DNA of 63,017 bases from NCBI GenBank assembly GCA_018971945.1, contig JAGWZH010000005.1, positions 1 to 63,017 of the forward strand, read 5' to 3'. Positions 18,234-21,947 of this stretch are shown here, piece by piece. Each line of letters begins with the position of its first letter. Position 1 is the stretch's first letter. Position numbers and translations under genes: made by a program. Origin of the DNA: Alphaproteobacteria bacterium. Its GTDB lineage: Bacteria; Pseudomonadota; Alphaproteobacteria; Caulobacterales; Aquidulcibacteraceae. Under the pieces are notes generated by a model. That model was not told the DNA's origin. It saw only the letters and a program-made list of their open reading frames with translations, and ran no database searches.

Positions 18234-18580
18234 GGACAGGGTCTTCAAGGGCCAAGCCTTGAGGGCAGGCCGGGCTTAACGAAACCGGCCTGAGAGACGC
18301 CGCCCTGAAGAGATGGGGGTGTCCCAGACGGGCTCTCAGAGGACGCGGCCTTGGGGGAAGGAGGCTAGGGGAGGGCGCGGATCCATCGCAAAGGCTTCCT
18401 CCGCCTCAATCGGTCCCTCGCGCGGGGCCTCCCAGACTTTGTGATCGCTCTCTTCGGCCAACCGACCCCCTGAGAAACCAACCGATGAGAAGCCGTCCCC
18501 GCGCATTGCACGGCGTGGCGAAAGCAGCTATGCGGGCCGCCTTTCCCCGCACAAAGGTGCGGAGTTGCAGGGGCGACCTC
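18234..18580. other. Intergenic region upstream of kup
   Basis: This 347-base gap has no supported gene. It probably contains the kup promoter. Short inverted repeats are visible (ctgagag at 18290-18296 with ctctcag at 18333-18339, and an aagcc/ggctt pair near 18254-18279), but none is convincing as a named RNA element. Confidence 0.4.
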
Positions 18581-20545
18581 ATGGCGCAGGCCGGGTCCGG
18601 CGCGCCGTCTTCCGATGACGACGCATCCAAGAAGCACGACGGCGCGCCCAATGGCGCTGGGCACATGCAGGCGGGTTTCTGGACGCTGCTGATCGGGTCG
18701 ATCGGCGTCGTTTATGGCGATATCGGCACCAGTCCGCTCTACGCCTTCAAGGAGTCCTTGCACCATCTTTCTCTAGACGGATCAGAAGCCACCCGGGCGG
18801 AAGTGATGGGCATTATCAGCCTTATCTTCTGGGCGCTGATGATCGTGGTGACGCTGAAATACGTCATCTTGGTCCTTTCGATGGACAATAAAGGCGAAGG
18901 CGGGACCCTGTCGCTTATGGCGCTGGCCACAAGGGCTCTGGGCCGTCGAACCCCGTGGTTGTTCGTGGTAGGGGTCGTGGGAGCCTCCCTGTTTTACGGA
19001 GACGCCATCATCACGCCGGCGATTTCGGTCTTGTCGGCGGTGGAGGGCCTGAAGGAGATCGAGGCCTTTGAGAGCTTCATCACGCCTCAAATCGTTCTTG
19101 GGATCGCCTGCGGTATCCTCGTCGGGCTGTTTTTGATTCAAAGTCGGGGCACGGGCAGGATCGGCCGCTATTTCGGACCAATCACCACGGTTTGGTTCCT
19201 CACCATGGGGGCCCTCGGCGCTTACCACCTCGTCACCGACGATATCTCGATCCTTCAGGCGCTGTCTCCCCATCACGCCGCCCGGTTCATCCTGGACCAC
19301 CAATTCATGAGCTTTGTGGTGCTCGGGTCAGTGTTTCTGGCGGTGACGGGCGCTGAGGCGCTCTACGCCGACATGGGGCATTTCGGGCGCAAACCCATCC
19401 GCACTGCCTGGATGGGATTGGTCCTGCCTTGCCTGACATTGTGCTATCTGGGGCAAGGGGCGATGGTGCTGAAAGATCCCACAGCAGCGGAGAACCCCTT
19501 CTTCTTCCTCGCCCCGGACGGGCCTCTGCGGATCGGACTGGTGATCCTCGCCACGGCGGCGACGGTGATCGCCAGCCAGGCCGTCATCTCGGGCGCCTTC
19601 AGCCTCACCCAGCAGGCGATCCAACTCGGCCTGCTGCCGCGGATGGAAATCCGGCGCACCAACGAGACAGCCTTCGGCCAAATCTACATGCCGCAAGTGA
19701 ACTGGATGCTGATGGTGGGCGTGCTCATCTTGGTGTTGACCTTCCAAAGCTCAACGGCGCTCGCTGCGGCCTATGGCATCTCCATCACCGGGGAAATGAT
19801 GATGAGCACGCTGATGATGTTCATCGTGCTCTGGAAGCTTTGGAATCGTCCGTTGTGGATGGCGGTCGCCATCGTCATCCCCTTCTTCGCGATCGAGATG
19901 ATCTTCTTCTCTTCAAACATGTTGAAGATCGCTCATGGGGGCTATGTGCCGCTGCTCTTGGCCTTGGTCCTTGTGACGATCATGTGGACTTGGGTGCGAG
20001 GGTCTGCGCTGCTCTTGGAGAAATCCAAACGGGCCTTGTCCTTGGAAGGCTTTTTCGAGCTGATCGCGCTGGACCCCAATCCGCCAAACCGGGCCCGGGG
20101 CACCGCCATCTTCCTCACGGCGGACCCCGATACGGCGCCCGCAGCGCTCGAGCACAATCTCAAACACAACCAAGTCTTGCATGAAAAGATCATTCTCTTG
20201 ACCGTCAAGACCAGTCAGGCGCCGCGCGCGCCGGAGAGCGAACGGGTCAAGATCGAAGAGTTCCGGCCCGACGTGAAGCGTGTGACGCTGACCTTCGGCT
20301 TTATGGAAACGCCCAATGTCGTGAAGGCGCTGACCCAGTCGCGGAAGCTGGGCCTCAAGTTCGAGATCATGAAGACAAGTTTCTTCTTGAGCCGCCGGAC
20401 CGTCATGCCAAGCGAGAAGAGCGGCATGCCCTTGTGGCAGGACCACCTGTTCATCTTCCTCGCGCGCAACGCGACGAACGCAACGGACTTCTTCCATATT
20501 CCGAGCGGGCGGGCGGTGGAGTTGGGCAACCAAGTGATGGTGTGA
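18581..20545 (+). CDS. kup: Low-affinity K+ uptake transporter Kup
   Basis: Kup imports K+ across the inner membrane by proton symport. From the ATG at 18581 it has 654 residues, near the family length. The conserved opening VYGDIGTSPLYAFKE lies near residues 45-59, followed by about twelve hydrophobic helices to roughly residue 470 and a soluble C-terminal domain. The start was placed at MAQAGSG, preceded by aggggcg; an upstream in-frame ATG at 18485 would add an Arg-rich leader. An Asp/Lys-rich cytoplasmic N-terminus (SSDDDASKKHDG) precedes helix 1. No partner genes are adjacent. Confidence 0.95.
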   Translation: MAQAGSGAPSSDDDASKKHDGAPNGAGHMQAGFWTLLIGSIGVVYGDIGTSPLYAFKESLHHLSLDGSEATRAEVMGIISLIFWALMIVVTLKYVILVLSMDNKGEGGTLSLMALATRALGRRTPWLFVVGVVGASLFYGDAIITPAISVLSAVEGLKEIEAFESFITPQIVLGIACGILVGLFLIQSRGTGRIGRYFGPITTVWFLTMGALGAYHLVTDDISILQALSPHHAARFILDHQFMSFVVLGSVFLAVTGAEALYADMGHFGRKPIRTAWMGLVLPCLTLCYLGQGAMVLKDPTAAENPFFFLAPDGPLRIGLVILATAATVIASQAVISGAFSLTQQAIQLGLLPRMEIRRTNETAFGQIYMPQVNWMLMVGVLILVLTFQSSTALAAAYGISITGEMMMSTLMMFIVLWKLWNRPLWMAVAIVIPFFAIEMIFFSSNMLKIAHGGYVPLLLALVLVTIMWTWVRGSALLLEKSKRALSLEGFFELIALDPNPPNRARGTAIFLTADPDTAPAALEHNLKHNQVLHEKIILLTVKTSQAPRAPESERVKIEEFRPDVKRVTLTFGFMETPNVVKALTQSRKLGLKFEIMKTSFFLSRRTVMPSEKSGMPLWQDHLFIFLARNATNATDFFHIPSGRAVELGNQVMV

Positions 20546-20586
20546 GAATGCCGCCTCGTCCAGTCCTCGCGTGAGCGTGGGCGTTT

Positions 20587-21040
20587 TTGGCGACCGTATT
20601 TACCTGGTGGGCGTTGAGCGAACTTGCGGCTCTATTCTCGTTGAACTGGTGGAGACCGGGGCCTGAATTGGGGTGGTTCGCGCTCGCGACCGGCTTGTTG
20701 GCGCCAGTTTGGTTGCCGTTTGCCCGCCATCGCGGTTGGCGGCGGCCTTTCGCGGATATGTTGATCTTCGGCTGGGTCGCGCTTCTCTAGCCCTTGGGGG
20801 CGCTGGCCCTTGGGGGCGCTGGCCCTTGGGGGCGCTGGCCCTTGGGGGCGCTGGCCCTTGGGGGCGCTGGCTTTTGTCTTCGCCCAGGGCGACCTGGGGT
20901 CGCTTCCTTATGCTCCCGATCCGATGGGCTATGTGGCATCGCGACTTGAGCAGGGTGCTTATGTTTTTGTGGCCGGAGCCGGGTGTGGGCTGCTTTACTG
21001 GCCTTTTGCTGGCAGGCCGCGTCTGCCTTATGGGGCGTGA
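20587..21040 (+). pseudogene. Broken small membrane-protein gene, split by nonsense codon and 16-bp repeat
   Basis: Two hydrophobic, protein-like segments lie in different frames. Segment A (20587-20787, TTG start or earlier) includes WFALATGLLAPVWLPFARH and FADMLIFGWVALL and stops at TAG 20788-20790. Segment B ends at 21040 and includes FVFAQGDLGSLPYAPDP and AYVFVAGAGCGLLYWPFAG. Between them are five copies of a 16-bp unit. Counting bases, with a single copy (or four) the two segments fall into one frame and would give a protein of about 130 residues with three or four membrane helices, if the TAG were a sense codon. Damage therefore includes a repeat expansion and a nonsense codon. I do not recognise the family. 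Confidence 0.5.
20791..20870. repeat. Five exact copies of a 16-bp tandem repeat
   Basis: The unit CCCTTGGGGGCGCTGG is repeated five times without mismatch, starting right after the TAG at 20788-20790. Sixteen is not a multiple of three, so every gain or loss of one unit shifts all downstream frames. Each set of three units encodes a 16-residue Gly/Ala/Leu/Trp/Pro peptide period. Confidence 0.97.
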
Positions 21041-21094: not shown

Positions 21095-21526
21095 ATGAGC
21101 AAGTCCTATGAGGCCGATTACTACAGCTGGGTGATTGAGCAGGCGGAGCTTGCCCGCACACGCTCGGCCAATCGGCTTGACTGGGAGCGGGTGGCGGAGG
21201 AGCTGCGGGCCTTGGGGGTGTCAGAGGAACGGGAGCTCGAAAGCTGCTATGTGGTGTTGCTCACGCATCTCCTGAAATGGATGTTTCAGCCAGATAAGCG
21301 GTCTCGGTCTTGGGCGACCACCATCACCGTCCAGCGGCGGGCGCTCGCCAAGCATCTCCGTCGTGATCCGGGCCTGAAGGCGATCGAGGCGGCTGAGTTC
21401 CTGGACGCCTATCAAACCGCCCGTCTGCAGGCTTCAGCTGAGACCGATCTGCCGCTGGAAACCTTTCCAGAGAAGCCGCCCTTCAGCATCGCCGACGCAA
21501 AAAACGAGAGCTTGACCCCTGCCTGA
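21095..21526 (+). CDS. DUF29 family protein
   Basis: This 143-residue protein matches the DUF29 family of bacterial and cyanobacterial proteins of unknown function. The opening YEADYYSWVIEQAELAR, a helical middle (DWERVAEELRALGVSEEREL) and the basic WMFQPDKRSRSWATTI segment are the family pattern. No enzyme motif is visible. The ATG at 21095 has no strong purine site. Its stop overlaps the start region of the next membrane-protein frame by eight bases, suggesting coupling. DUF29 genes are often mobile or present in many copies, but nothing here shows recent transfer. Confidence 0.85.
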   Translation: MSKSYEADYYSWVIEQAELARTRSANRLDWERVAEELRALGVSEERELESCYVVLLTHLLKWMFQPDKRSRSWATTITVQRRALAKHLRRDPGLKAIEAAEFLDAYQTARLQASAETDLPLETFPEKPPFSIADAKNESLTPA

Positions 21527-21947
21527 GGTACTCCGATCTCTCGGCGCGTGGTTTGTCGCCGCGCTGGCCGGCTCTGCGCTGGGCGCAGCCCTCTCGACGC
21601 TGCTCGTCCTGTCGCAAGGCCTTCCAGAGTGGGGGTTTCTGGCGCAACTCTGGTTTTGGCTGACCGTCGCGGGGTTTGCGCTCGCGTTTGTCGGCGGCGG
21701 GGTCGCAGCGGCGCTCGCGCTCTTTGCGGGCAAGCGGTTTAACCCGCCGAGACCGCTTGCGGACATGGCTGCCGGCGCGGTCACAGCGTTCATGATCCTT
21801 CTTTCCATCCGCGCCCTTGTTTTTGCGCAGATGGAAGAGGCGCTCACCATGCCCGATTTTGGACTGATCCTGATCGTGCCGCTGATCGCGGGGGCGGTCG
21901 CGGGGCTTGTCTATTGGCGGATGGCGCCGCGGGCCGCGCCTCATTAA
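21519..21947 (+). CDS. Four-helix membrane protein with possible CTG start
   Basis: A continuous frame from 21516 to the TAA at 21945-21947 encodes about 142 residues with four hydrophobic stretches. These include AWFVAALAGSALGAALSTLL, FLAQLWFWLTVAGFALAFVG, ADMAAGAVTAFMILLSIRAL and FGLILIVPLIAGAVAGLVYW. The frame has no ATG, GTG or TTG until the ATG at 21765, which would remove half the helices. A CTG at 21519 follows gagag (21505-21509) at usable spacing and overlaps the DUF29 stop. I therefore propose CTG initiation or a damaged start. The family is not recognised. It precedes the SdpR-like operon but has its own position upstream of that operon's operator. Confidence 0.5.
   Translation: MPEVLRSLGAWFVAALAGSALGAALSTLLVLSQGLPEWGFLAQLWFWLTVAGFALAFVGGGVAAALALFAGKRFNPPRPLADMAAGAVTAFMILLSIRALVFAQMEEALTMPDFGLILIVPLIAGAVAGLVYWRMAPRAAPH

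Follow-up and report, generated by a model that had tools for sequence, protein, structure and literature searches.

Bacterial minisatellites, or VNTR loci, arise by replication slippage (short-homology-dependent illegitimate recombination; e.g. PMC2884548), and the array described here resembles them in its perfect short units, its few copies and its consistency with slippage. The gene in which it lies is comparable with singleton pseudogenes in the sense of PMC3711429, being disrupted in one lineage by multiple lesions, having intact orthologues elsewhere and belonging to a dispensable kind. The locus is read here, with a probability of about 0.85, as a pseudogene: a gene behind kup for a dispensable small membrane protein, struck by the lineage's tendency towards array formation.

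The window, that is the whole stretch of DNA that was analysed, has 63,017 nucleotides, and all genes of the locus are on its forward strand. The upstream neighbour is an intact kup gene for a K+ uptake permease (18485-20545; Pfam K_trans, 1.6e-172, and K_trans_C, 2.6e-48), with 76 % identity to its nearest match in the family. The pseudogene of a small protein with multiple transmembrane segments follows, from an ATG to its original stop TGA (20548-21040), identified from its intact syntenic orthologue in genome G009. The downstream neighbour is an intact gene with a DUF29 domain (21095-21526; Pfam, 7.7e-40). Further on, at 21525-21944, there is an ORF for a second multi-transmembrane protein, possibly a paralogue, which can be aligned with the kup-linked family at its C-terminal motif, GLVYW. 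This ORF has no in-frame ATG, GTG or TTG before 21765, and it may start at CTG or may be damaged as well.

Three-frame translation divided the pseudogene into an N-terminal half in frame 1 (segment A, 20575-20787), which ends in VALL at 20787, and a C-terminal part in frame 2 (segment B, 20870-21040), which begins AFVFAQGDLG and ends GLLYWPFAGRPRLPYGA before the stop at 21038-21040. Between them is a minisatellite at 20790-20871, which was found by TRF as 5.1 head-to-tail copies of a 16-bp unit, GCCCTTGGGGGCGCTG, with 100 % identity and a score of 164, the units thus exceeding 9 bp. An in-frame TAG (20788-20790) stands at the upstream edge of the array, and its G doubles as the array's first base. 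The self-match at period 16 extends over 66 bases, compared with a maximum of 13 at any period of 10-29 in 20 shuffles of the window, and a search of the 3.4-Mb draft assembly that allowed at most one mismatch found the 16-mer nowhere else. Relative to a single unit the array has a net gain of 64 bp and shifts the frame; as 16 leaves a remainder of one on division by three, segments A and B share a frame with one, four or seven units and not with five. The first-pass annotation, which had described a membrane-protein gene interrupted by a fivefold 16-bp repeat and a TAG and had given one or four units as the numbers that join the segments, agrees with the TRF result and the three-frame translation in these respects. 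Elsewhere in the window, at 2337-2401, a perfect 6-bp repeat, TCCGTC, is present in 10.8 copies.

The two segments were compared with proteins of related genomes. The first query was a conceptual protein that carried an X in place of the stop and a single array unit; the search was then repeated with segments A and B separately. Among 60 genomes of the same family there was one clear relative (G009:C3), with 45 % identity over query residues 29-128 and an open frame. This orthologue (L065:3965-4474, minus strand; 169 amino acids) is intact and lies directly behind kup in the order htpX, kup, gene and argG region, a neighbourhood that matches that of the window. Genome G010 provided an independent second match, an intact protein of 140 amino acids encoded directly behind kup. 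The separate segments were searched with phmmer against ORFs located immediately behind 30 kup genes from the family, together with two further loci. With E-values that apply to a database of ten sequences, segment A matched residues 50-86 of the G009 protein (4.3e-15) and residues 43-81 of the G010 protein (full-sequence 1.6e-5), and segment B matched residues 118-157 (1.5e-8) and 102-128 (1.2e-5), respectively. Since each segment alone matches the same intact proteins, and the order is kept, A and B are parts of a single gene. Both segments are hydrophobic and coding-like, as had been noted, and the syntenic G009 and G010 proteins join the two segments, the feature whose absence from relatives had been named beforehand as evidence against one gene. 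The G009 orthologue, approximately 45-49 % identical, is from another genus and is the sole close orthologue found; it has no repeat at the site corresponding to the array.

More divergent genes with a YWxxAG-like C-terminus are also found behind kup in G016, G074, G078, G063 and G015, and the majority of the kup loci examined in the family are without a recognisable copy of the gene. The unnamed small membrane-protein genes downstream of kup in this alphaproteobacterial family have their position and hydrophobic segments in common with the window gene, and share with it a C-terminal motif like (G)xxYWxxAGRPxxPY, as judged by eye and from a MAFFT alignment. Because orthologues are present behind some kup genes and none is recognisable at most others, the kup-linked gene is, from these comparisons, real, variable or fast-evolving, and dispensable. 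No Pfam family reached the cut-off for it and no NCBIfam match was obtained, and an AlphaFold2 model of the one orthologue was poor (pLDDT 54, mostly helices). A scan of genome contigs matched the G009 record alone (a MAG of an uncultured alphaproteobacterium). Two further matches were dropped: a weak one in G005, to an ORF of 149 amino acids amid YeeE/YedE-like genes and away from kup, and one in G006, which falls in low-complexity sequence at the 3' end of a helicase-like gene. Genome G009 also has, between argG and the orthologue, two adjacent small ORFs (L065:3376-4010) which resemble a toxin-antitoxin pair of the ParD/RelE type.

The alignment with the G009 orthologue affected both the extent of the gene and the count of its lesions. 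Homology reaches upstream of the TTG at 20587, at which the gene had first been placed to start, as far as AWAF at 20575, and the ATG at 20548, two bases past the kup stop and in the frame of segment A, aligns with the orthologue's start, MP. The predicted original start is thus this ATG, whereas the annotated end at 21040 was retained. A second in-frame stop, TGA at 20572-20574 (codon 9 of the gene), had been overlooked beside the TAG, which does block the frame as was first described; the AWA of the orthologue resumes directly past this TGA. If translation began late, at TTG 20587, the TGA could be bypassed but not the TAG. With the frameshifting array the lesions total three, and a full-length product is blocked. 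Segment B has a GC3 of 0.54, compared with 0.74-0.81 in kup, the DUF29 gene, argG, the sdpI-like gene and the downstream ORF. Identity to the orthologue, a single and distant one, is lowest at third codon positions, chiefly in segment B, which shows that selection acted on the gene in the past; since this constraint is still visible, the gene loss is probably not ancient.

The frequency of similar arrays was assessed by TRF (periods 10-20) in 356 kb of stretches, a sample of this genome, and in 200 kb each of G009, G013, G015 and G063. Twenty-one arrays were found here and six in the 800 kb of the four relatives (1, 0, 4 and 1, respectively), i.e. 5.9 per 100 kb compared with 0.5, 0, 2.0 and 0.5. 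The binomial p value of the excess was approximately 7e-7, or 1e-5 when the three loci that prompted the sampling were left out. Eleven arrays here, and none in the relatives, have periods that are not divisible by three (p approximately 2e-6). Most arrays of the genome have units of 12-18 bp in approximately 2.5-8.5 copies. ORFs, by crude calls, take up 81 % of the sequence, yet 12 of the 21 arrays lie outside them and 9 within, and one of those called within an ORF lies, on inspection, upstream of a glyoxalase-like gene, making it the 13th non-genic array. That array is one of the three frame-breaking arrays (of 11) called within ORFs, the other two being at contig ends; in the 356-kb sample none of the 11 was seen within a gene shown to be intact.

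Three arrays, with periods of 15, 16 and 17, have a core like TTGGGGGCGCTGGC, whereas most other units are unrelated. A 17-bp array with a unit like GCTGACTGGGGGCGCTG and the core of the window array is found at L135:19920-20000 (end of G000:C68) and at L068:1-90 (start of C52), possibly a single array at which the assembly broke. A 15-bp unit with a related core, GGCCTGGGGGCCGCT, is repeated 8.5 times at L141:14983-15110 (G000:C79:54983-55110). Loss of MutS, MutL, RecJ or XseA (exonuclease VII) was rejected as the cause of the array excess, because mutS, mutL, recJ and xseA are all present with open frames. A burst of short-unit minisatellites in the lineage (mostly 12-18 bp), many of them unrelated and independent, in which the window gene was caught and which some alteration of replication or repair, apart from loss of these four, brought about, is a tentative explanation, to which somewhat less than an even chance is given.

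Intact homologues in relatives and a disrupted copy here argue for the pseudogene. Its ancestor would have encoded a membrane protein of approximately 140-170 residues with several transmembrane helices directly behind kup, with which it seemingly formed one operon. The frame would have been lost in this lineage through the stops at 20572 and 20788, and a single 16-bp stretch would have become five tandem copies, presumably by replication slippage; we infer this mechanism, the precedence of the stops over the expansion, and the lack of function. The array is one among many short arrays accumulated by the genome, largely in untranslated DNA. As the genomic background of similar arrays is high, it needs no special explanation; in all likelihood it is a side effect of a mutational tendency of the whole lineage, which here struck a gene already subject to little or no selection.

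The first-pass annotation had favoured a phase-variable contingency locus, in which the number of units toggles the frame and which is now stably off. The gene is indeed broken and off, and the perfect units of a length not divisible by three, their position within a membrane-protein gene and the joining of the segments by one or four units would suit such an origin. This reading is not supported, however, as a change in unit number alone would leave two in-frame stops. The orthologue lacks the repeat, comparable arrays occur across the genome and mostly outside genes, and no other unit number was found at the site in relatives, all of which are of other genera, so that a contingency origin is considered very improbable. 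A little less probable again is that the array works as RNA or DNA in the interval from kup to the DUF29 gene, for example by forming a hairpin that terminates or attenuates transcription past kup. Adjacent units can pair, giving a stem of 12 pairs (20838-20865) with GCTGGCTTTT after it, but terminator-like matches were at the level of chance (2 found, 1.3 expected), the array DNA folded no better than shuffles (z approximately -0.3 to -0.4) and the array is not conserved in relatives. An assembly error in the stops or the unit count is the least probable explanation, for although the assembly is a draft of 233 contigs with arrays at contig ends (the start of C52 and the end of C68), an ordinary short read is longer than the 82-bp array, assemblers are more prone to collapse arrays than to create perfect copies, and the error would have to extend to two separate stops.

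The pseudogene with its array resembles phase-variable contingency loci in that a repeat with a unit length not divisible by three lies inside a membrane-protein gene, and is unlike them in its two further stops, its repeat-free orthologue and the lack of any known unit-number variant or phase-variable relative. An intragenic repeat of this kind should accordingly not be taken as evidence of phase variation until the array background of the genome has been counted. Unlike the frameshift pseudogenes of PMC3711429, the frameshift here is a tandem array and not an indel of one or two bases. The locus alone is ordinary, one more pseudogene; the array-rich genome is of more interest. Its arrays lie mostly outside genes, as in bacterial minisatellites and VNTR loci (PMC2884548), but it differs from these in that the window array is known from a single genome and in an array density ten or more times as high as in three of the four relatives, a high background which makes this genome a good place to ask why short tandem arrays proliferate in certain bacteria.
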